In this document: piece by piece, positions 16,721 to 62,909 of the stretch
How the letters are laid out: each line of letters begins with the position of its first letter
Position numbering within the stretch: position 1 is the stretch's first letter
Assembly (NCBI RefSeq): GCF_963678975.1
Contig: NC_089272.1
Span: 62,260,574 to 62,324,573 of the forward strand
Direction: 5' to 3'
Source: Dysidea avara
Lineage: Eukaryota; Porifera; Demospongiae; Dictyoceratida; Dysideidae
Length of the DNA stretch: 64,000 nucleotides
The notes under the pieces: model-generated
Database searches by the model: none
Seen by the model: the letters and a program-made list of their open reading frames with translations, nothing else
Told to the model about the DNA's origin: nothing
Position numbers and translations under genes: made by a program

Positions 16721-19700
16721 CTACTTCAGTTTTTTGATCAAAGTGCTAGCTAAACAGCTCTCACCCACAGATTGGCTTTGTAAAGCTTCTAAAAGTGATT
16801 CCCAAGATTTTTCTTTTTGAGTGTTTCTTAGCCATTCTGTAAACATCATCCTAGCAGCTGTCTTACTGTCACTATTATCATGTTTTATTGTTTCCAGTTC
16901 ATTTTCGTCAATGCCAAGTTGGAGACCCATTTCAAACCATTTAGGGGCCATGTTTGGAATCACCAGTTCTGTAATATTCTTAATGTTGGGTGGAATTGGT
17001 GAATGACCTATAAATCATGTAACATCTAGTGAGGTACAGCAACTTCATTGTGCATAAGACTGCAGAAGTTCTATATTCACGATATCTTATGAGCCACATT
17101 AAAGGACTATATGGTTTAAAATTTGTGACCTTAAGGATTCAGGTTACAGTTATACTGAAACTGTCATGGTCATTTAGGCATTCACATCCCTACAAGTTTA
17201 TGCTTTAGTGGTTGAACTTATGAGGCATTAGAAAATTTCCCAATTGGTAGTAGCTGAAATTGCAAATCCAAAAAATGCACTGATACTATTAATAGTAACA
17301 CAATATATTCTATGTTTGGGAACAATGCTTACTGTGAGGTCGCATGATAGTGACACTGACTGGTGTAGCTTCATCTGAGTGTGACCAATCTTTATCATGA
17401 GTGTCCTGTGGTAAAACACATAATATATTGTTTGTATGTATGAAATCTTGCTGTTACAATCTATTGGTATAATACATCCTGTACATAACTGTCAGTGAAC
17501 GACAGAAATACAGTTGAAAAAGTTTTAAGTAACTCACTACAAAGTCACAAATCTTACAACAGTTGGCTACTATTATTATATAAATAATATGTACATAATT
17601 ATGCACAATATACAAGAAGTTACCTCTTTAGTTGTACTTTTATTGTCAGGTAGATGTGTACTGGTCAACTCATTATGCTTTGAAACAAGTGCTTTGTAGA
17701 CCATATCATGTCCAGTTCCACGAGTAGAGCATTGCAAGCAGTCCAAAAAGGACCAAAACCATCCCTCTTGTTTTCTAGGTAGAATTCTCACCAAATAATG
17801 TGCTTTTTCTTCATCTGGTCTGCTTTCATTTAGTAAAAATAGACTATTAAGATCAGTGAGCAGTTGCTTAGCACATAACAGTGGATGAAGAGTTACAGCA
17901 TCCAGCTTAGCCTTTATGACAGACAAACACTGCTCTAATGCCATTGTCTCTATCTTTTCACTGCGTAAAGTAGTCCACACATTCATAGCAGTATTAAGCC
18001 TGTAGAGCATTTTAAAACAATGTAATTTATGAGTGGGTTTGCAAAAAAGGTTTTCCACCCACATCCAATTTGCTAACTTGATGATTCATAACTTTAAATT
18101 AGAAAAAGCTAGTGACTTCACAGCAAAAAATATGAATTTTCCTTTTATGTGCTACCCTATCACAGGTGAAGCATATGTAGTCACCTTTTTTGCTATACAT
18201 TTGTGCACTGTGCACATGTGTAGTGAAGTTGCAAATATGTATGTGCTACTGGAGGAAATGTGTTGAAATACCATTTCCATCATACGTGGTCATGATTTGC
18301 GTAGTCACAAATTTGACCTATTCTACACATTTCTGCAAACACATATGTTGCAAATTTGACCTATTTACACATGTGCTTAATATGCCATTGGGTGTGTAAA
18401 TCCAAGTTTTTTTGCAGTGCTTGAAATTTGGTCTGCAGTGAGTACCAACACAGCTTGACAGGTGGAGAAAATTTCAGGTTTATATGTTATCTAAACACTA
18501 AGTTATGGTCTCTTAAATGTATAGAATTGGATGTGTGTGGAAGACCCTTTTATGTAACACGCGATGATATACATATATACGAAGGATGTGATACACACTG
18601 TTACCTATTCTACACACCATACCCATCTATATCTGATGAAACCTGAACATTGTTGGCCAGGCTTTCTTGCAGTTTAGGAATAGAGTTTGCATCATTTCTT
18701 CGTTGCATGGTTTCTGTTGTATGAAAATTTTGTTTTGATATGTCTGCTGTAACTTTTGCACATGTCTCTAATAGTTCATCTGTATCATGAGAATAAAACA
18801 CTTCCACTGAATCTGAAGATTCATGTCTGCCAAGATTTGGCAATGTATTGCAGTATACCACAGACTGTTTACTTTTTACCACATTGATAGTGTGGTTAGT
18901 TGGGTCTGGTAAAGATGAACTGCTAGTGCTAGAGCTTCTGACTCTTTGCTTCCGGAATGGTGGATGAATTTCATGATGTGATTGACCAGTAGCACCTGTG
19001 TCATGTTCGATTTCTGCAGAATCTTCCAAACCTGAATCACTGAAATGACGGTTACGTTGTGGGTTACACAACCTGCACAGAGATTGGTATCCTGTTACGT
19101 ATGTACAATGTATATACATGGCTTGATATAATTACAATGAAGCCAAAAAGTAGTTCTGTTTGCATGGCTTATCATGTTGACAAACTAAATGAACTCTCAC
19201 AAGAGCATACATGAAAAGTATATAATTATCTAACTCTTTTCTTGAGGAACACAATGCATTAAGAACTGAACTAACTTGAAAAGGCATTCACAGATGTCTG
19301 AAGACTGTTTACAATCCATCCATAACAAACTTGATCCCTCAGAATATTCCCCTGTAGTTTCAATAAAAACAAGAGACTCAACATGACCAAACCATTTGAT
19401 CATGACTGAGTTCCAACTATAAACAGCTGAACTTTGATCATGATATGAGCAATCATATAGCCTGAAGGTAGAGCCATAGATAGCTGCGATATACAATCCT
19501 TCATTTAGACATAATCCTGCTCCCTTATGAATGATATTGACAACCCATATATACTCTAAAGTGAATAAATGAAACACGAGCTATAGGTACATGTCTATGT
19601 ACATACCAGCATTAAACTCTGTTGGGTCATCGTATCTGGTGACAAAGTTCCTTGGAATTAGGTTATAGTTTGGAGTTTGAGGGATAAAATAATATGGGAG

Positions 19701-21772
19701 ATCATGCAACATTGTACAGAACTGGATCCATTTTTCTTGTTCATTATGTGATTCTGCACAAAACCAGAGTTCAGTACCATTAGATGTCTTCAAACTAACT
19801 GATCTATCCTCATGTATACTCATGTCATCAATAGCATGGAATAGAATTTCTTGTGCTTTAGACTTTCCTTTGGCTGCAGATTTAACATCTGTGAATAGCT
19901 CTAGTCTAGCTGGCTGCTCTTTGCTTATTCCACAGGTAATCTTTAAGTATCTTTGTTTACTGGTCTGTATGTTTTAAATATACAGTATTATACTATTTAT
20001 GTATAAAACTTAAACTAACAATGTATTATTTTTGTTTGCTTCACAGCATATTAAGCTATACATACAAAACTCAACGATGCTTTGGTTGTAATCCACTATA
20101 CTGACCTCTCATATTCAGCGCTATACTTGTATGTCAAAATAAGTCAACAACTAGCATAATAGGCAAAATAAAAAGCACAATTGGCGGGTCCCTATACCAA
20201 CAGCACACATCAACTGTGTTACATTTCATAGGTAACTGTAGCTTATAAGTAAAGAGCATAGCACTGGATATGAGAGGTCAGTATAGTTTGAATCTTGAGT
20301 TACAACCAAAGCAGGGTTATTGTATGTATACATACACAATGTGTATTACATTGACCAAGTAACTTGCCTAACACTGAAAGATTTAGCACAAAAGCCATAT
20401 TGCTAGTTACATCCTAACAACACAAGTGTCATATATCATTATGTGGGACTTATGCAAGTAGCTATAGCAATGCATTTGTTGCATGTCCTGCAACAATGAA
20501 GGGAAAACACCTTGTCACATAAGGGGATTCACCATTGAAGAGTTTCTGTATTTTGTAGCTGCATGTACGTACATGCTGTATAGCTTCAACTTCTTTATGT
20601 ACTTCATTAGTTTAATAAGCTCATGTCTATAGTGTAGGCTAACAATTCACAAAAATGTCAATCTCAAATATTCCGTTAAATATGTGTGTGAAGTGTGGAC
20701 TATACTATTATCATAACTCAGTGGTAGATAAAGATGGTTTCATGTATATACTATGTATATACTATTACATATGTATATACTATTACATATGTATTTCAAT
20801 TGCCATTTGATATAAGCAAGAGTTGAGGAGAGTATCCTACTCTCATATGCCCCTGTAGAAGGGCGTATCGTGAAGTTATGTGTACCTAACAATGTCGCTA
20901 GCAACCAAATTAACTCCAGTTCTAAGCATTTCTCACCGAACTACAATCATTCCTTCATGTGATACGATCACTTCGTAGGCGTTTCTTGCAAGGCCATTTG
21001 CGAATACGGCTATCCTGAGCATCACGAGTGTGAAATGGTGCTAACAATTCTTGCACTTTTATCGCTGCTCATACAGCACAAACCATAACATCTTGTTTTT
21101 TTGTCATAACTTCACAATACGCCCTTCTATAGGATATATGAGAGTAGGATACTCTCCTCAATATAATATATTATGAACTCTTGATATATTAAGTATACTA
21201 CATATAATATTATAACGGTTGCAAACAGTTCATGCATGCATGCATGGTCCTTTCTGTTGTGATTAACGGTCATGTGCAAAATTATAGTCATTAGGTTTTT
21301 ACAGCAGAATTATTATGTATTACACAAAGTCAAACACATAATACTTGTAACAAAAGTTGGCTGAGGGCTGCATGCATGGGAGCATCCTGAAAAGGTTCTC
21401 TTGCATAACTAGTTGGCCAGAGAAAAAAGAACCACACTATTAACACACAAGCTGAAAAGGTAGCTAGCTATTGACAAAATTGAGAACAATGTCAGCTAAA
21501 ACTGTAAAAGAAAAAATGTGGGCAGCAATAGATTAGCCAAATTACTGTAGCTGTAGCTATGTGCTGTTTTCTGACAAGTATACTGTATAGCAAGTATTCA
21601 GCTACATATATAGATGAATTAAGATTCGCATCGCCGGCATGGCACGTGTGACTACAGTAGCTAGCTTAGCTACATATGAAAATTACAGTCAACTAACTTT
21701 CTTCAAGAACACAGTAACTGTTCCACACTGTATCACTTGTCCATTCTTCCTCGCCGCCATCATTTTAGCCAT
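16721..21772 (-). CDS. Copy B: complete PH-PTB-linker-CARD-DEATH adaptor, 652 aa
   Basis: Seven exons on the minus strand: 21772-21698, 19964-19607, 19555-19235, 19091-18623, 17999-17624, 17405-17333, 17007-16721. They sum to 1959 nt (652 codons plus stop) with all phases compatible. An in-frame stop lies just upstream of the first ATG. Domains: PH about residues 14-110, ending in the conserved helix Trp (EKWIQF); IRS/DOK-like PTB 145-251 with LNEGLY and YSWNS; Ser-rich linker 252-408; CARD about 409-515 with LLT and a GWFWSFLDCL helix; mini-exon 534-557; DEATH 558-652 with MAPKWFEMGLQLG and MFTEWLRN. Such adaptors are expected to be cytosolic or membrane-recruited and to bridge receptor tails or lipids to death-fold complexes. 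The intron at 18622-18000 holds a palindromic MITE. Donor GTTAGT at exon 1 is weaker than the rest. The combination of PTB with CARD and DEATH is unusual to my knowledge; naming a vertebrate orthologue is not justified. Confidence 0.87.
18031..18556. mobile_element. MITE, TGTGACCGG family, in copy B intron, with a secondary insert
   Basis: The outer parts (18031-18120 and 18420-18556) match the 50079 copy, including GAATTGGATGTGTGTGG. The middle 300 bp begin and end near GCAAAAAA and its complement and look like a second, nested insertion. Confidence 0.7.
20823..21161. mobile_element. TIR element (339 bp) in copy B first intron
   Basis: Starts TTGAGGAGAGTATCCTACTC and ends with its complement; the inverted arms extend about 60 bp through a GAAGGGCGTAT block. 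No clear target duplication, no ORF. Confidence 0.75.
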
Positions 21773-29266: not shown

Positions 29267-30165
29267 GTTGAAACCGGGTCACTACTGCTGACCCGGATGA
29301 CCCACTGACCCGGATTTGACCCGGATGTGACCCGGATTAATTAAAGTCGAGATGTGTTTCGGCTAGTCTCGAGCGAGCGAACGAGTCTACATTTTGAGCG
29401 TTTGATTCGTGTTGAGTAAATATTGCAACATCAGCCTAGCTAGCTGTAGGTTGAAGACAAAAAAAAAAAAAAAAAAAAGGTCTTCACCTACAGTACTGAC
29501 AATAGCTACCCCTCACCATAGATTTTTTTTTCTTTTTCCCGGGCTTGATGGACTGCCCTTTCCTACCACCCCCAGCACAGATTGCAAGTGCTGGACAACT
29601 GAACAAAATTAAGCAAAAAAAAAACAAAAAAAACCCTCACCATAGATACCAATGTTGAAACCGGGTCACTACTGCTGACCTGGATGACCCACTGACCCGG
29701 ATAGCAATCCAGGTTAGACCCGGATAGCAATCCAGGTTAGACCCGGATAGCAATCCAGGTTAGACCCGGATGTGACCCGGATGTGACCCGGATTAATTAA
29801 AGCCGAGACGTGTTTCGGCTAGTCTCGAGCGAGCGAACGAGCTACATTTCGAGCGTTCGATTCGTGTTGAGTAAATATTGTAACTTCAGCCTAGCTGTAG
29901 GTTGAGGACCCACCCCCCCCTCCCCCCCCCCCCCCCCAAAAAAAAAGTCTTCACCTACTGACAATAGCTACCCTCGCGTATGTTGGTAATGCGATAAGTG
30001 GGGGTGGCTCACGAAAGAGCTACGCGATAGCGTTTCTCCTTATAAGTTTCCACGTCGTCAAACGAACAATTTCGTTTCTCACGTGATCCATTGTAAACCG
30101 GGTCAGACCCGGATGACCCGGAGAAAATGTGACCCGGATGACCCGCGACCCGGTTTCAACTCTGA
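29267..30165. mobile_element. Two GACCCGG-rich TIR elements in tandem
   Basis: Each starts GTTGAAACCGGGTCACTACT; the second, at about 29653, runs to GACCCGGTTTCAAC at 30165. The first is cut off at about 29652. Multiple GACCCGGAT direct repeats lie at the ends, and a 23-bp unit (GATAGCAATCCAGGTTAGACC plus) is repeated three times at 29696-29768. Interior holds a poly-A/poly-C tract and a TTAATTAAAG(C/T)CGAGA block. A third copy at 38364-38805 is inverted. Confidence 0.75.
29524..29637. mobile_element. Small poly-A retroposon inside the first GACCCGG element
   Basis: A roughly 110-bp insert starting in T/C and ending in an A-rich tail is flanked by the direct repeat CCCTCACCATAGAT (14 bp). 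The copy at 38.4-38.8 kb carries the unoccupied site (TCTATGGTGAGGGGTAG at 38552-38570). Confidence 0.72.
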
Positions 30166-30379
30166 CCTGTAATATAAATATTGTGTACTGTAGAGTTAGT
30201 TGCTATTGTGTGCTTTCAGTTATTGATTAATGCTTACATAAATTAGTGATAGCATAAAAGTGAGTGCGACTCAAGCCACATCTGCAGTCTTGGTAGTAGC
30301 TAAAAAGAAAATCTGTTGAGTTCGCTGAGCGGGTTAGCTGCTGATTGTCCAGCGTGCAGAAAGTTATGGGTCAGCGAGT

Positions 30380-33300
30380 ATGTCATGGGAATGGGATGTT
30401 GTGATACCAGCACCCCAGGTTGCCGTGATGCCATGCAGTCGCATCGTCCAGTTGTGTGATCGATCACCCAACGACGACCTTGACTCCCATGAATTCGACA
30501 GTCATTCAATTTATTTGTTCCCAAACTTGGTGCGTGGCACTATTCGATTCATTTGCTTCAGCTACCCACTCTTGAAAGAGTATTTGCTTCGTGTTTGCAT
30601 GAACTGGCTGACGATTTGGACAATTGTTCCCCAGAAATTTGGAGGCGCTGGTGGTTGTGATAATCGATTAAAGATACCTCGTACAAAACAACAAAAGACG
30701 TTAGGCTACAGCTATACAGTGTTGGAATTATCTGAAGTGTTTTTTGCGAAGTACAGTGTTGGCAGTGGTATTGATCTATTTTGTCGTATTGCTAGTATTG
30801 TACTTTTGTTTTTAGCGATTAAGCTATTGACATGGGCCTGGAAAAGATACAATGTTGGACTAGACAGTCTCTTTGAACATATGACACTCAACGTACCAGT
30901 GGAGTATGAGAACGATGTGATAGCTCTTGATGAGAACCAGTGCAGTGATTGTTTCAGAACATCTAGTGAGTGGCACTGTGATGAGCCTCAACCTCAGCCT
31001 CAACAGTTTTTACGTGGAGACAAGCCCCTTAACAAACAGTCTTTAACAAATCAGTTACACAGCAAGTCATTTCTCAGTGTTGATAGTGGAAGGAGCTATA
31101 ATGAAACCACCGTGGGTTCATCTGGTTATGGTTCGAGTGTAAATTCTAATTATAGCCAAAATACTTTCAAATCCCAGATAGTTGGTTTGCAACATTCAAA
31201 TCTTTCAGGGATTGATAGTGTCCCTGATAAGGCAACTGACAGCGTGCAACTTAACAAACTACAAAATGCACTAGATAACACTGCAACACGTCATAGCTAT
31301 AGAGAACCATGTGTGTCTCTTGGCCATCATAACCAACGAATTACAAATAATTGGGATCCACCTGCAAATGTCAGGAAGAAGGAAGAAACAGTTCGTGAAC
31401 CTGTAACTAAGTCAGGATACAGCAAGCCAACATATGCAGTACTTATAGGGAACACTGTGACAGTATATGATACAAGTAGATTTGCATCACTACCAAACTA
31501 CAGCAAGTTTATGGTGAAGGAGAGACAAAGAGATTCTTTTGGAGTAACTAGAGTGAAGCTAGCATTGAAATATTGTGAAGTGAAAGAAGAGAAAAGGTAA
31601 TAAATACATTACAAGAAGGCTCTTGTATATAATCTTACACAACTCATCATGCATGTAATGGTAAAGTCCCAGGAAACATGAATAGAGTTGCAGAGTGATT
31701 ATGTAAAGGGAGTGGCTGAGGGAAACCTTACATACATCATACATAATGTGGTAATGCTGTAGTCCCAGGGAAAGTGTTATTGTTATACTATGGCTTTGTT
31801 ATGCACATTATGTTATAGTTAGCTATATCCCGGTACGAGGGTGATATCATTGTTATTACACGAGTCCGAGGCGGAGCCGAGGACGAGTGTAATAACAATG
31901 ATATCATCCGAGTATACGGGATATAACTGTTTTATATCCCAGTGCGCGGGAGTGCGCAGAAGTTTGCGGATAGTAAATTAAGTTCCGGTTTGAGTTCCTG
32001 TCACTGTGCTCAATATTTCGTCCGAATTGTGTGGAGATTCTACTTCGTAGCCACAAGAGAGACCTTACATACTGCCTACAAACTGTAACGAAGGGCGGTG
32101 TTATGAAGCAGCGGTTCCAGGTACGATTCGCCTTTGTCAGAAATTGGTATAGTGGTGTCGCGTGTTGTGCAAGAGAAAAATAAAGACCAACAAGTGGCTA
32201 CCATAGTCCAAGATAGAACGATGAAGCTAGAGGAAGTTAGTTCTTCACCATAGTGGCCGTTGGGAGTGGTTGCTGGAGCGAAAATCGTCACGTACTATTC
32301 TTGACATTTGTTAAACTATCGTATTGGTAACTTGTAGTGTTATTGTGTAAAGGATTAGCTAACAGTTTTCTAGATTTAGGGAGTGTATAAACAGTGGAAT
32401 GGACTACTGGAATGGTGGAATGAATTTTTTAAAAGTTCAATATCATTTTTTACATCCAAATAAGTACAACTCCTCCCCTTATGTAAGCAAATAAATAGGA
32501 TTCCCCTTGAAGTCAGCTTATTTAGCATAATTCACCTCACCATAGACAAAGTTTACCAATGTAATGATGTAAAGTCAGTTATGAACATGCACAATAGCAG
32601 TTTATTGGGAACATCAAGAAGACTCCTGACTTAACCCTTGTTCCCAAATGATAAAAAGTTAGCTAGCTAGTTGATTGCTTGTAAAAGTACATTCACTGTA
32701 TAATGGTATTCATTTATTATCAACTTTACCAGTTAGGCACTGGAGGACAAACATAGAAGGCAGAGCCTGTATGAGCTGTTTACCATTAACCTAGAAACCT
32801 AAGTGAAAATCTTTGGGAAAAGTGAAATGCGACTATCTTGTAAGCATTTACAATGAGCCTTTTCCACAATTATGTCAGAACAAAATTTAAGCCAAACTTC
32901 ATTGTGGCAGTGCCATGTTGCACACTGAACTGAACCACAGTTAGTTTCAGACAATTAATAAAGTATTGAGTTATAAGTCATACAAGTGTTGTGGTGAGGA
33001 AAAGTATGCTAAAAGAGCTGACTTTGAGGGGAATCCTATTTATTTGCTTACATAAGGGGAGGAGTTGTACTTATTTGGATGTAAAAAATTATATTGAACT
33101 TTAAAAAATTCCATTCCAGTATTCCACCATTCCAGTAGTCCATTCCACTGTTTATACACTCCCCTAGATTTAGGTAGTTTTAAGAGCTGTATTGGTGTGT
33201 TTTGTATCAATATTTCCTTATTTGGCTCTTTGTTCCATTGGTAAACAATGCCTTGCGCGGTTATTATGATGTCACGAAAGAGACTGAGTGGCTCCGCAAC

Positions 33301-36300
33301 AGGGTGATAAGTTAGTTATCACTGGGTGATAACTAATATATTGTACAGTAGCAGCGCCGCTCTGTCTAGCTGTATGGTAGTTATAACCCAGCTCGGCGCT
33401 TTGATACTCCCACGCACTGGGGTTTAAATGGTCTTGTAAGGCTGCATGTGAATGTATCACCCTTTTCATATAGGAAATGACTAAAACACGGAAAGGACTG
33501 GGAAAACGGACTGGGAAGAACTTGCCTGAAAACGTTTTTGGCCATAGAAATTCACTGTATAGCTGCTAGAAAGAATATAACACGCAACAATGACCTGAAA
33601 CAAACCTCTGAACTGCTCTGAACACGATGTCGAAGTGTACTCAAGCCGATACTAAGCCCTGCGCTTAAAGATAGTCTGATAAATCCATTTTGTGTTTAAG
33701 TAAAAAGCACTCTTTCCGTTTCGCATTTGTAAACAAGAAGCTTTAAACCTGTTAAGACACTATGTTACTTGGATTTCGTGGTCTGGTTTATTGCTGCAAT
33801 TAGTTTGACGGCTGATCTTCAGTTTTACAGGTGATAGCCGGGCTTCGTGGTGAGACCACGTTGTATTTAAAGGCACTGGCTACTATAAACCCATATTCTG
33901 TGGTGATGGGCTGGCTCCGTTATAGTTTGGGGTTTTCCTTGCTCTGTTCTTCAGTTATGTGCATCAGGGGATCACGCTCAATATCCAAGTGTCTGTGTGT
34001 GCCTCCAGCAGTTGATCTTGCTGTTGCTGAGGGGCACCTGCCTGCCCAATGAACCCTGGGCATGCTGTAGGTTCTGTGTAGGTTCTTTTCTGTAGGTTAT
34101 AATTTTTCAAATATTTTCTTAGCATTCTATAGAGATGTGTGGGAGGAAGGGAGTGCCATTAGGGCCGGAGGATAAAAACAAGTAAAAAAAAACTGGCTAC
34201 TATAAATACAGTCTGTGTTATTTTGTTTGTTAAACAACAACTTTGCTGTCACAGGCGCTCACACTGGCAGACTGGCGCTTTGTAAGTTATCCCAGGGTTT
34301 AATGGCGTCCAGAGGTTTGTTTAAGGCGGTTGTTACGTGTTATATTCTTTTTAGCAGCGATATAATGAGTTTCTATGGCAAAAAAAAAATTCAGGGAAGT
34401 TTCTTCCAGTCCGTTTGTGAGTCCGTTTTCCCAGTCCGTTCCGTGTTTTAGTCATGTCCTTTCATATGGTCACTTTAAACCAAGTTGTGTCAACCCTAAA
34501 GCAGTAGGGTTGAACATGGTGGGTTGAATTCACTTTATGGCTTCAAAAGCGAGTTGTGTGAATACAAAAAATGCTTAGAAGACAATTATCACTCATCATG
34601 TGATGATAGCTTATGAACAGAAACTGGGTTGACTTTTGGGTGTCCATGTGAAAATGGTGTAAATTTTTATAGTGATCACTTACCACAAGACAAAGTAGAG
34701 AAAGATGGAATTTGGAGAGAACATGAGGAGGAAGATAATGGAAGTGATGAAAGGATGCATTTTCGAGAGAACACTAAAAGCACAGGCTTCATCATATATA
34801 CTGTAGGTTTAGTGTTCTAAAAGTTGCTGAATGTCATTCGTTTGAATATATATTAGTGTGACAAAAGATTTTGTGGCAGTATAAAATATCCATTACCCAC
34901 TGAAAGAGCTACTGATTCTAAGATAGGTAAAGGCGGCAATGGATTTGTCTTTACTATTTACCATGAAAGAAAGCAGTATGCTGTGAAAAAGGTTGGTACC
35001 AATGGTTGCTAATCATGATATAAAACAACCATCATACTTTCTTTTATTTTTCTATAGACTGTTTACCGTTCCAATGAAGTCAATGTCCACTCAGCACTGA
35101 ACCATAAAAACATTTTACCTCTTTTGGCTGTACTAATGGGAGAGAGACATGAACGTCATTCAGGAAGGTTTTACTGTTTTCATTTCATGCCCAAAATGGA
35201 TTATGACTTAAGACAAATATTATCTGCCAGAGAAGTTGGTTGCTTAAAACACTTTTACAATCACTGCTCGAAAGAAATTGAAAAATGGCAAAGAGGTTTT
35301 AACAATATAAAGTTTATACTTGCTGGGACACTTGAAGCTCTCAAATATCTTCATGCTAATGGTTATGTACATAGAGACGTGAAAGGTAAATGACGTCAGA
35401 TGTATAGAAACTGAAATGACAAATCTGTTACATGTTTTACACAGCCAGCAACATAATGATCAAGATGAGATGCAAGTGTAATCCACTCTACTGTAATTGT
35501 AGTTCAAAGTTCCAAGTCAAACTTGGAGACTTTGACTCTGCTGGTACTGTACCAGGACTTGGTATAAAAGAGCCTACTGACCAGATGATCAAGTTTGCCT
35601 CCATCCTGCCACTAGGAACACCAGGGTATCGGGCTCCTGAGGTGATGCTGTGCTTGTAGTGTTGTAGTTGGTTGATAAGTGTATTAACTACAGGTATCCA
35701 TGCACATCACCCTATCAGGACCTTATGAAACACTGTACACATTTGCAGTTGACATGTGGTCATTTGGATGTCTGTGTTTGAATATTTGTATTGGGAAGAC
35801 TGCAGCTTTGAAACAAAGGGAAGAAGCTTCTTTATTGTTGTCCAGAACTCATCCATGTGGTACCGAGCTATGGGAGAGGACAACTAAAGTATGTTATTAA
35901 TGAAATTTTAAAACACGTACATCACATACTATACCATATAGCATATTTTTCTCAAGAGAACTTTAATTTTGCTTTTTAGAAATTAAAATTTGCAACATGT
36001 TTCATCACGTGTGGTATGTTGTTTGTCAAGTTTTGTTTGTTTCTTTACCAATTATTGTTGGACAGCTGTTATGCTACCCTGTTTCCTGGCGAAATTCAGA
36101 CGGCTGTGTAAATTCATCACAGATACAGGAAACATGGCTAACTTTCAAACTGCTTTCCATCCCATATGCACAAACACTTATTATAATAATAAGTAATAAA
36201 TCTGTGTGAGAAAGTTATTATCGTGAATTTGTCACCTTGCGAGATTAAGTGTCACATGATTTTATTTTCATAAGTAAATTATTTATCTGTGAGAAAAACC

Positions 36301-40068: not shown

Positions 40069-41272
40069 CAGGGCCGTAGCCAGACTTTTATCTGGGTAGG
40101 TTCTTTTAGAAGAAAAGTGGACCTTTTTTGAGGCCCTTTTTATATGGATTACATTATGGTGTGTGAAGCACACCCAGCATGTGAAGCACACCCAGCATGT
40201 GAAGCACACCCAGCATGTGAAGCACACCCAGCATGTGAAGCACACCCAGCATGTGAAGCACACCCAGCATGTGAAGCACACCCAGCATGTGAAGCACACC
40301 CAGCATGTGAAGCACACCCAGCATGTGAAGCACACCCAGCATGTGAAGCACACCCAGCATGTGAAGCACACCCAGCATGTGAAGCACACCCAGCATGTGA
40401 AGCACACCCAGCATGTGAAGCACACCCAGCATGTGAAGCACACCCAGCATGTGAAGCACACCCAGCATGTGAAGCACACCCAGCATGTGAAGCACACCCA
40501 GCATGTGAAGCACACCCAGCATGTGAAGCACACCCAGCATGTGAAGCACACCCAGCATGCGAAGCATGCTGAAACTAGGGGGGTCTGGGGGCATGCCCCC
40601 CCCAGGAAATTTCTTGAAAATAGACACTAAAAGGTTGAATTTAGTGGCATTTCAGTCAATAAAAATAACAATTTTTAGGTAGGCTTAAGACCAGCTATTT
40701 GGATGACATCTGGGAAATATCTCTACTATACTACTGTAATTATACCATCTGTGTCTATAATATATTGGAATGTCACAGTGAATAAGAATGGGAAAGATTG
40801 AACGCTCTGTTGGATCGTGCATTGAAGCATGGATGCTATTTATGGGCTCTGCATGGGGGGGCTTGCCCACCAAAATTTTTATATTATGAAAGTTCTAGTT
40901 AAGGCAACAAACATGGTTTTGTAAATAAATTAAGTAATTACATACAGATTTTAGAAGAAAACATAATTGTGACCGTTCTATTAGAGTGATTGTTCTATTA
41001 GGGTGGTTGACTGCTCTATTAGAGTATCTCGATCTTGCAGTGCATTACAAGCACTGAATGAGCCAGCTACTCGGAGCACTTAATTTAGCTTCTTATTAGT
41101 GGTGTTTATTAAACTGGAGCTAATGGACTTTTGCTACTGAAAATTTGGACTTGTATACTAAAAATGTGGACCTTTTTGCTAAAATTGTGGACCTTTTTAC
41201 TGAAATTGTGGACCTTTTTCCCAAGAGGGCGGTTCTTCCGAACCCCCCGAACCCCCCCTGGCTACGGGCCTG
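40069..41272. mobile_element. 1.2-kb CAGGGCCGTAGCCAG element carrying a minisatellite
   Basis: Starts CAGGGCCGTAGCCAG, ends CTGGCTACGGGCCTG, flanked by TTTAC on both sides (40064-40068, 41273-41277). It contains the 18-bp minisatellite, two GGGGGTCTGGGG/TGCCCACC segments near 40580 and 40850, and the CTATTAGAGT motif cluster at 40978-41032. Confidence 0.8.
40162..40557. repeat. Minisatellite, 18 bp x 22
   Basis: The unit TGTGAAGCACACCCAGCA is repeated exactly 22 times (396 bp) with essentially no divergence. Because the period is a multiple of three, long open frames exist on both strands; none is a credible gene. Confidence 0.95.
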
Positions 41273-59631: not shown

Positions 59632-62600
59632 ATGAATCTCTGTAAACCACTTGGTCCTATATCGTTCACGGGAAACATTGCCCAGAGCTGGAAGGATTTT
59701 GAAAAGTAACTTCAAACTGCAACCAAATTTCGACAAAACAAGGATTGGAATAATGCTTTCACACGCTGGAAAAGAAGCGAGAGAAGTGTACAAAATGCTT
59801 CCGTGAGTTGCAGTAGACGAATTGAAATTCGACAAAGTGATCCAAGAGCTCCGATCTTACTGCGAGCCACGCAAAAATGTCTTGTACATACATCATGGCT
59901 TCTGGAACCTACAACAGCTAGAAGAATCAGTGGACACCTACCTTACTAGATTAAAGATCAAGGTTGACTCCTGTGACTACAACAAAGAGGGTTGGCCTGC
60001 CGCAGTCTGTATGGAAATGCTTCATGACAGATTTGTATATGGGCTACTTGATGACACTTGAAAGAAAGACTATTGCATGAAACTGAACTAAACCTGGCAA
60101 AAGTAGTAGAAATCACACAGAGACAAGAATCTTCAAAGAAACAGACAAAAGATACGTCGTCAAAAGCACCAATTAACACATTGTCATAAGGTCAGAAACA
60201 CCGACATTGTCCAAGGAGTGGTACTGACACACACATCACCTTCTGCTGCTGTGGACAACAACATAAGCCAAAGCACTGTCCAGCTTATGGCTAGAACTGC
60301 ACATGCTACAAAAAACCAAACCACTTTGCCAGAATGTGCAAGACTATAAACTTGTCGGTGCACAAATCCCAGAAAAGGGCAGATATGGACATTCAAGAAA
60401 AATTCATGTGGTTGAAGAGCCAGAGCAAAACGCATAGTCACATCACATCCAGCTCCAATGACAGTTGCACACTGGGCATGGACCCACTAAGAATTGATGG
60501 CATAGAGAAGCCAATGCAGTGGCTATCAACAGTTAAGACACAAAGTGGAAAGTTCACTTTTAAGTTGGATACTGGAGCTGAAGCCAATGTAATCCCAGTT
60601 GAGGTATTAAATCAACTGACTAACATTCCAACAATCCAGTCTAACAAGACAAAGTTGACAGCTTATGGTGGAACCACAATATAACCTCTGGGCACTTGCA
60701 TGCTAAGTAAGCACAAATCAAATTCTACATTGATAATGCTGATTCTCAGCCCATCTTGGGTCTTGAAGGTTGTAAAAAATTAGGCCTAGTGAAATGGGTA
60801 AACAACATTGAGGTGGAAGAGCTATCTAAAGAAGCTCAACAAGTCAAATACAAGCAAGTATTTCATGGCCTTGGAAACCTAGGAAAATACCACATAACCC
60901 TGAGAGAAGGCTGTACACCAGTAGTACACTTAGCACGCCATGTTCCACATTCCTTGAAGAAACAGTTAAATCAAATTCTAGATTTGAATGTGAAGTCAGG
61001 AATTCTGTGCAAAATTGACCAGCCTACTGATTGGGTAAATAACCTAGCAGTTGTTGAGAAAGCGAATGGGTCTCTCAGACTCTACCTAGATCCAAAGGAT
61101 TTGAACAAGGCTATTAAATGAGAGCATCATAAAATTCCCATAATTCAAGTAGAGGTGTACCAGTATGGGTTCTTGGCATGTACCGATATCCGATATTGAT
61201 GCCACCAAAAGAAGCCAATAACCAATAGTCAATCCGATATTTGCATTATAGTTTTAAGCAAACAAAAGTGTACATTTACCACAACATGTACATGTACTCT
61301 GCCTGTGGTGGTATACAGCTTGGGTTTTTATTGTGCAATCCAGACAATTAGGTACCCATAAACATTTTTATGTGTACTCCTATGAATCCTTATACAGATA
61401 GCTATTTCTGCATTACTCTGCATTCTAATGGCTTGTGAGAAAGCTGGTACAGCAAGTTTCCAAGGTTATCCTGTGACTCTTCTTTTTATTACAAAGGTAC
61501 TCTGTAACTGCTTCATTTGTAGACTATGATAAGCTTTCCAGAGACAAACACTAGAATCGCATGTATTTGTATGGCTTCTCATAGCGTAGCGCTTGTTGCA
61601 GAGTGAACAATAAGCCACTGGCACTAAAGAGTTACATGGATAACGTAGAAAACCAATGTATAATCCGTTTATGTACAAACTATTGCTACTGTAAAAATAT
61701 CGGTAGCGATATTGGTCCTCCTGCTGTTCTGTACATATCGGTGGCCAATATTTTAGCCGATCCAATTATCGGTACACCTCTAATATCAAGTGAGCTAGCA
61801 GGAAAGAATGTGTTCTCCACACTTGACCTGAAGGACAGATATTGGCAAATTGAACTGGACAAAGATAGCTCCTTGCTGTACACTTTTGCATCTCCTTTGG
61901 AAGATACAGAATCACCTGAATGCCTTTTGGAATATCTTCTGCCAGTGAAGTCTTCCAAAAGAAGAATGAAACAGTGTTTTAAGGTATATCAGGTATTCAC
62001 ATTGTTGCTGATGATATAAGTATTGTAGCTTCCTCAGTGCAATAGCATGACCGTATCTTACGCCAAATCCTGGAAAGAGCTAAAGAGCACAATTAATTTT
62101 AACAAGCTACAGCTAAGAGTCCCTGAAGTCAAATACCTGGGCACCATCATCACAGCAGATGGAATGAAGCCTGATCCTGACAAGGTCAAAGCAATAGTTG
62201 ACATTCCAACTCCCACAGACAAAGCTGATGTCAGATGTTTCTTAGGTATGAGGTATGATTAACTTTCTTGCTAGAACATGTCAGCTACCACCGCTCCATT
62301 AAGAGACCTTCTGAGAAATGATGTGCACTTTCAATGGGATTCACAGCATGAAGCAGCTTTGACCAAGATTAAGGAAGTGATATCCTCTGCACCAGTTCTA
62401 TGTTGCTTTGATCCAAGCAAGACCAGCACAATTCAAGCTGATTCCAGCAAACATGGTCTAGGAGCATGCTTACTCCAGCAGGGGAAGCTGATCGCTTATG
62501 CATCATGAAGTCTGAGTCAAACTATGTTTAAATTGAGAAAGAGCTGCTGGCAATTGTTTTTGCTTGTGACAAGTTCCATCAGTTTATCTACAAATTTCCA

Positions 62601-62909
62601 ACTAAAGTGCACTCAGATCACAAACCTCTTGAATCAATTGTTAACAAGCCACTTTGCTCTGTTCCACCAAGACTGCAAAGAATGTTGTTGAGACTCCAGA
62701 AATACGATATAGCAGTCAAGTATGTCAGTGGCAATTCGTTACATGTAGCCGACACACTATCTCGTGCACATGCCACCAACAATTTTCAATCCCAAACTCA
62801 TGATCATGACATGGAACTGGCAGTTCATCACTGTGTTTTACATCTCCCAATAGGTGAGTCTCAGAAAGAAGAACTACGAACAGCTACCTCCACAGACAAA
62901 GTGTTATAA
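59632..62909 (+). mobile_element. Broken Ty3/Gypsy-type LTR retrotransposon (gag-pol relic)
   Basis: In order on the plus strand: a Gag-like stretch beginning at an ATG at 59632 and clearest at 59822-60061 (YCEPRKN, ESVDTYLTRLK); a CCHC zinc-knuckle region near 60200-60330; aspartic protease with LDTGAEANVIP near 60565; reverse transcriptase from about 60830, with LRLYLDPKDLNKAI, then FSTLDLKDRYWQIEL after an insertion, and a VADD-like catalytic box near 62010 in another frame; RNase H with QADSSKHGLGACLL and HSDHKPLE near 62450-62640, ending with ADTLSRA. Frame shifts, stops and deletions separate these blocks, so it is not functional. No integrase and no paired LTRs were seen. A TGGTGTCTGAAG stretch at 59595 could be a primer-binding site, which would put the 5' LTR end near 59590, but this is weak. 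Confidence 0.88.
61150..61782. mobile_element. hAT-like non-autonomous element inside the Ty3/Gypsy RT
   Basis: A 633-bp insert begins TAGAGGTGTACC and ends GGTACACCTCTA. It is flanked by AATTCAAG (61142-61149) and ATATCAAG (61783-61790), an 8-bp target duplication with two differences. It splits the reverse transcriptase reading between the HHKIP and LAGKNVFS segments. Inner ends carry CCGATATC-like repeats typical of hAT termini. No transposase ORF. Confidence 0.8.

Follow-up and report, generated by a model that had tools for sequence, protein, structure and literature searches.

A clustered sponge gene family predicted to join PH and IRS/DOK-type PTB domains to CARD and DEATH domains

The 64 000-nucleotide stretch of the Dysidea avara genome analyzed here (C1:62260574-62324573, on contig NC_089272.1; hereafter the window), taken from a genome of 550.8 Mb in 108 contigs, carries on its minus strand (21772-16721) a gene of seven exons that form a single open frame of 652 codons closed by a TAG stop. 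The gene is predicted to encode, in this order, a PH domain, an IRS/DOK-type PTB domain, a Ser-rich linker, a CARD and a DEATH domain. It is a member of a clustered gene family and not a lone chimera, as the order PH-PTB-CARD is found on one strand in 13 loci. All six introns have GT-AG borders, and their phases (0, 1, 1, 2, 0 and 1) are consistent at every junction. An earlier note on this DNA had proposed both the seven-exon, single-frame model and the domain order; the first was borne out by the borders, the matching phases and the stop, and the second is supported by the phases, the paralogs and the family profiles. We consider the gene model and this architecture very probably correct.

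The least certain exon of this gene (the focal copy) is exon 1 (21772-21698; residues 1-25), which contains the start codon and the first strand of the PH domain (VIQCGTVTVFLKK). Exon 2 (19964-19607; residues 26-144) supplies the remainder of the PH domain and the joint between PH and PTB, exon 3 (19555-19235; residues 145-251) the PTB domain, and exon 4 (19091-18623; residues 252-407) the Ser-rich linker, with the motif DSGLEDS at residue 270. The CARD is encoded by exon 5 (17999-17624; residues 408-533), a short linker by exon 6 (17405-17333; residues 534-557), and the DEATH domain by exon 7 (17007-16721; residues 558-652 and the stop). A foldback was observed within intron 1 (20823-21161), with inverted arm pairs of 26 nucleotides (100%) and 29 nucleotides (93%), and a further inverted arm pair of 33 nucleotides (91%) lies at 20095-20287.

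When the focal CARD was searched against the genome, 38 matches were obtained, of which 26 fall in C1:62.09-62.60 Mb and one at C1:63.4 Mb; the remaining 11 are on contigs C2, C8, C10, C11 and C12. We inspected 20 stretches around CARD matches, one further stretch beside copy C, and the window, which together cover 26 of the 38 matches. Mapping at an expectation value (E) of 1e-4, with queries that include rows from the mapped loci themselves, recognized 26 CARD, 17 PTB, 15 PH and eight DEATH stretches in the window and the extracted stretches (L049 excluded). The 13 loci with PH, PTB and CARD in order are the focal copy, A, C (L033), D (L032), E (L035), L031, L037, L038, L040, L042, L043, L047 and L048. 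A DEATH domain follows in five of them (focal, A, C, D and E), its absence elsewhere referring to the extracted stretches. Twelve of 13 loci examined, L048 being the exception, have a pyrimidine-rich acceptor one base before the CARD frame, which fits the CARD being an internal exon, and several also have acceptors in other phases. The seven DEATH exons inspected by eye all start in phase 1. Although exon 1 of the focal copy gave no paralog match by tblastn, a pattern list read by eye offered candidate phase-0 first exons, each with a G-hydrophobic strand at its end, upstream of seven of 12 paralogs (A, D, E, L031, L037, L040 and L047); it yielded none upstream of C, L038, L042, L043 or L048.

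The loci vary in content. L037 and L038 have two CARDs each; these highly similar PH, PTB and two-CARD loci (L037:2668-6278 and L038:2149-6026) are about 26 kb apart and likely represent a recent duplication within the cluster. The L034/L041 copy shows PH, then PTB, then three CARD pieces, its PH being interrupted by a stop, and a lone CARD lies at C1:62204539 (L034). PTB and CARD are found in L039, in L050, where the PTB sits at the edge of the stretch, and in L049 on C8, and CARD only in L036 and L044. In L040 the CARD frame hits a stop shortly after the CARD. Close to either end of the cluster, L045 (1690-5452) and L046 (3081-4190) carry DEATH before CARD on one strand, with no PH or PTB within either stretch. 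The loci group as focal, A and D (support 100), as C, L042 and L043 (95), and as E, L031, L040 and L048 (67). The DEATH-bearing genes were not found to be monophyletic; since these groupings split them, they suggest that DEATH was gained or lost more than once in the family.

Two further copies lie in the window. Copy A, detected by tblastn at 5352-3256 on the minus strand (43% identity in PH-PTB over the aligned span, 49% in the CARD), has a PH exon (5349-4992), one exon of 1039 nucleotides for both PTB and linker (4934-3896) and a CARD exon (3640-3256); its DEATH exon (L031:9712-9972, or C1:62260285-62260545, minus strand) is just left of the window, and its first exon would be expected further upstream of 5349. 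Its PH exon is equal in length to that of the focal copy (358 nucleotides), the intron phases around PH, PTB and CARD are equal, and the phase-2 donor of the long exon fits A's CARD acceptor. Copy B (29145-27523, minus strand, tblastn) consists of a CARD (52% identity) with an in-frame TAG and a DEATH domain (61% over the aligned span), and no PH or PTB was found alongside. Over aligned codons, the focal copy is 59, 41 and 49% identical to A in PH, PTB and CARD, and 52 and 65% identical to B in CARD and DEATH. Nei-Gojobori ratios of nonsynonymous to synonymous substitution (dN/dS) between the focal copy and A are 0.27 for PH, 0.67 for PTB and 0.36 for CARD; those for the CARD are 0.41 (focal and B) and 0.32 (A and B), and that for DEATH is 0.35 (focal and B). 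Upstream of copy B, where PH and PTB would be expected, there is a 420-codon open frame (30338-31597, plus strand) that includes a hydrophobic stretch and a region rich in Ser and Asn, and for which no Pfam match was found. Also upstream of B is a 23-base tandem array (29694-29771; 3.4 copies, 100%), surrounded, as judged by eye, by similar GGGTCA-rich sequence.

From the focal copy alone, DEATH is the sole clean assignment, and the predicted PH, PTB and CARD are settled by the family. The full 652-residue product matched Pfam Death above the cut-off (1.4e-7), with CARD_2 and IRS below theirs. Exon by exon, exon 7 matched Death (PF00531) at E 5.8e-9 (36.4 bits against a cut-off of 22.6), and IRS (0.005), PH (0.029) and CARD_2 (0.031) were all under cut-off. 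In several family members CARD and Death score over the Pfam cut-offs; in the focal copy only Death does. The profile of 12 family PTBs matched the PTB of IRS-1 at 5.3e-7 and also those of FRS2, DOK5 and DOK1; Tako8 rows (0.0005) rank between IRS-1 and FRS2, and weaker rows of WD-repeat type are short partial matches only. A two-row PTB profile, in contrast to the 12-row one, gave no rows. The 13-row PH profile matched the PH domains of beta-spectrin (5.4e-4) and IRS-1 (1.4e-3). IRS is the top Pfam family, always under cut-off, in six of the seven PTB-bearing pieces scanned, and none was listed for A's long piece. Single-sequence phmmer searches of the PDB gave two chance rows for the whole focal protein and none for the PH-PTB part of A.

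For exon 5, both the sequence and the predicted helical-bundle fold are those of the CARD superfamily: the AlphaFold2 model has a mean predicted local distance difference test score (pLDDT) of 85.2, and most of the rows that it drew in Foldseek and VIA-align are CARDs. The DEATH family profile gave THOC1 as the top PDB row (0.017), with dUTPase and ferritin-like chains intermixed and PIDD rows at 0.031 and 0.045, and because of this mixture we claim no DEATH subtype. Weak rows for the RAIDD CARD, CRADD DEATH and PIDD DEATH chains came up in the profile and fold searches. The profile searches do not reject the PTB and death-fold assignments of the earlier note. A genome search with PF02174 listed 13 matches, all of them outside C1, the contig of the cluster, only the best candidates being scored. 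Because the PTBs are under the Pfam cut-off and this search listed none in the cluster, under-annotation is probable: routine annotation probably shows the cluster genes only as CARD/DEATH genes or as uncharacterised.

In IRS-1, R212 and R227 form what we take to be the Arg pair that grips phosphotyrosine. In an alignment of 12 PTBs read by eye (C excluded), the counterparts are K/G in the focal copy, T/G in A and K/G in D. Both Arg residues are kept in five of the 12 (L031, L037, L039, L040 and L047), and the other pairs are K/R in L049, I/R in L048, T/R in L043 and K/K in L035. Docking proteins characteristically carry YxN for the SH2 domain of Grb2 and PxxP for SH3 domains. The longest open frames between PTB and CARD in L031 and L040 have NNYEN and YEN tyrosines and PPLPPR or PPLPPK; the corresponding frame of L048 has neither YEN nor proline motifs, and the focal linker has one YxN (YCN) and no YxxM, NPxY or PPLPP-type proline run. 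The DSGLEDS of the focal linker is matched soon after the PTB by DSGIVES in A and DSGILS in D, a form known from beta-TrCP degrons; a DSG-type motif is absent from all frames searched in L031, L040 and L048. The loss of the Arg pair and these differences in linker motifs suggest that the branch of focal, A and D has changed its input and control. Unphosphorylated NPxY-like peptides are ligands of many PTB domains.

We propose, with a probability of about one half, that the focal protein is a membrane-proximal docking adaptor with a RAIDD-like CARD-DEATH tail that joins a death-fold assembly. The PH and PTB half would place it at a phosphoinositide-bearing membrane, on a receptor or scaffold tail, and the Ser-rich linker would act as a regulated tether. 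The CARD-DEATH tail would nucleate or join the assembly, DEATH binding a DEATH-bearing receptor or partner and CARD a CARD caspase or kinase adaptor. The focal PTB probably either binds partners independently of phosphotyrosine or forms part of a PH-PTB structural unit. The predicted gene model, domains and family are the sequence-supported part of this mechanism; we infer the membrane binding, the partners and an output of caspase or NF-kB type. A wider scheme is more tentative: a CARD-bearing IRS/DOK docking family, expanded in a half-megabase cluster in this animal lineage, would couple receptors without intermediates to the assembly of CARD and DEATH domains, with pocket-keeping members taking tyrosine-kinase input and the focal branch having switched to a phosphotyrosine-free input and being equipped with DEATH. 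For an immune or self/non-self role of the family, its clustered and multi-copy state is the sole basis from which we infer it.

Several observations weigh against the docking-adaptor proposal. The gene model is known from genomic sequence alone. The Pfam PH model matched only two of the seven PH-bearing pieces scanned, both under cut-off, and among the domains the PTB shows the weakest constraint (dN/dS 0.67). Structure prediction, which the earlier note had called for, favored the CARD and left PH-PTB poorly modelled: the PH-PTB model, made only for paralog A and from an alignment of three rows, lacks the residues of the first exon, includes residues translated from intron sequence and has a pLDDT of 40.6. 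Its top Foldseek row is the PH-PTB of Dok7 (E > 0.001), its PTB part is barely tested by the fold rows, and neither it nor the CARD model had a Foldseek row at E 0.001 or better; given the poor model, we treat the PH-PTB fold rows as supporting evidence only. The focal PTB, moreover, does not have the phosphotyrosine-pocket Arg pair. The earlier note had suggested that a receptor or lipid signal is linked directly to death-fold assembly; the architecture is in keeping with this, but K/G in the pocket weakens the receptor-tyrosine-kinase part for the focal copy, and that part fits some other members better. Finally, the nearest functional parallel we found, mammalian Dok3 and Card9, is one of logic only because the contact is made through the coiled coil of Card9 and not its CARD (PMC10383035).

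Relatives of the family occur in other assemblies. Single-exon profile searches of public genomes and metagenomes returned 12 CARD and three PH proteins. Five (P0001, P0002, P0008, P0012 and P0015) match the source genome's own copies; P0003 and P0004 have 72-74% identity to A, P0009-P0011 have 68-70% to B, and P0013 has 74% to the focal PH. B-like CARDs without the stop are present in these assemblies. The presence of A-, B- and focal-like proteins in other assemblies suggests that these types are older than the source species. For both P0004 (CARD) and P0014 (PH) the longest contig listed measures 3155 bases, a coincidence suggesting that PH and CARD lie together on a single small contig. 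The full-length focal protein had no match among 5.8 billion proteins, and no relative turned up in viral_contigs, scanned once with the PH profile.

Could hand splicing have merged two neighboring genes, one for a PH-PTB docking protein and the next, downstream, for a CRADD-like CARD-DEATH protein? The genomic origin of the exon chain would allow it, copy B is a CARD-DEATH gene without PH-PTB, and L045 and L046 carry DEATH and then CARD, likewise without PH-PTB. Yet the phases agree across every focal junction, the donor of A's long PTB-linker exon leads in phase into A's CARD, and one-base CARD acceptors recur in 12 of 13 loci, even if several of these also have other-phase sites. Because the same order and strand are seen in 13 loci, we set aside both this reading, which is very improbable, and misassembly.

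A different role for the focal branch, as a decoy or brake, is unlikely but has more in its favor. The pocket-less proteins would bind membranes, soak up CARD/DEATH partners and damp paralogs that read phosphotyrosine. The Arg pair is lost in focal, A and D and kept in five of 12 PTBs, the pair-keeping L031 and L040 have YEN and PPLPPR/PPLPPK where the focal linker has a single YCN and no proline run, and Dok3 negatively regulates Card9 in mammals (PMC10383035). On the other side, purifying selection acts on PH, CARD and DEATH, and L048, with one Arg kept, also lacks the YEN and proline motifs. The phosphate-independent binding mentioned above for many PTBs likewise speaks against a brake. It is improbable, too, that the gene is an ordinary, lineage-specific product of domain shuffling, partly decaying through birth and death of copies and with no distinct signalling role. 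The in-frame TAG of copy B, the stop in the PH of L034/L041 and the retroelement and foldback sequences of the window speak for such a history; against it, dN/dS is far below 1 for PH, CARD and DEATH, and the closest proteins to A, B and the focal PH are present in other public assemblies.

Elsewhere in the window, protein kinase gene pieces occur in three open stretches (35058-35897, plus strand; Pkinase E 2.4e-8, 0.093 and 0.0023), on the strand opposite the adaptor genes. Retroelement pieces of long-terminal-repeat type lie in separate frames at 60295-62906 (plus strand), with protease-like (0.008), reverse transcriptase (0.0054) and RNase H (2.2e-12) matches. An 18-base tandem array of 22.5 copies (99% matches) at 40162-40566 leaves several frames open.

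Compared with known systems, the docking adaptor resembles IRS/DOK proteins (IRS-1, DOK1-7) in its N-terminal PH, the IRS-type PTB directly after it and a long tail, and the family PH and PTB profiles both match one IRS-1 chain, 1qqg, with PH before PTB. It differs in carrying CARD and DEATH at the end of the tail and in having K/G for the phosphotyrosine Arg pair in the focal copy. Its C-terminus is, like that of the PIDDosome adaptor CRADD/RAIDD, a CARD followed by a DEATH domain, the order found in CRADD, which to our knowledge has neither PH nor PTB; the focal frame adds both, and the PIDD rows of the DEATH profile are weak (0.031 and 0.045). The earlier note knew of no standard family with this domain order. 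In the part of the open-licence PMC literature consulted we found no description of PH-PTB joined to CARD or DEATH. The gene is nevertheless part of a clustered family rather than a single oddity.

In mammalian Dok3, the PH and PTB domains bind Card9, so that a PH-PTB docking protein acts on a CARD protein (PMC10383035); there the two are separate chains acting in trans, whereas the adaptor holds both halves in one polypeptide. Sponges have large death-fold repertoires, with 39 CARD and 128 DEATH domain-containing genes in D. avara itself, but the architectures resolved in that source are NACHT-LRR receptors, and the word PTB does not appear in its main text (PMC12909245). It is common to regard growth-factor docking proteins and death-fold adaptors as two distinct systems. 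In this lineage, receptor docking and death-fold assembly may be held in a single chain, and such a chain would offer a direct test of how membrane signals can nucleate assemblies of CARD or DEATH domains, and of the way in which early animals linked receptors to cell death. The wider scheme, if true, would add to NLRs and death receptors another entry into death-fold signalling near the root of the animal tree.

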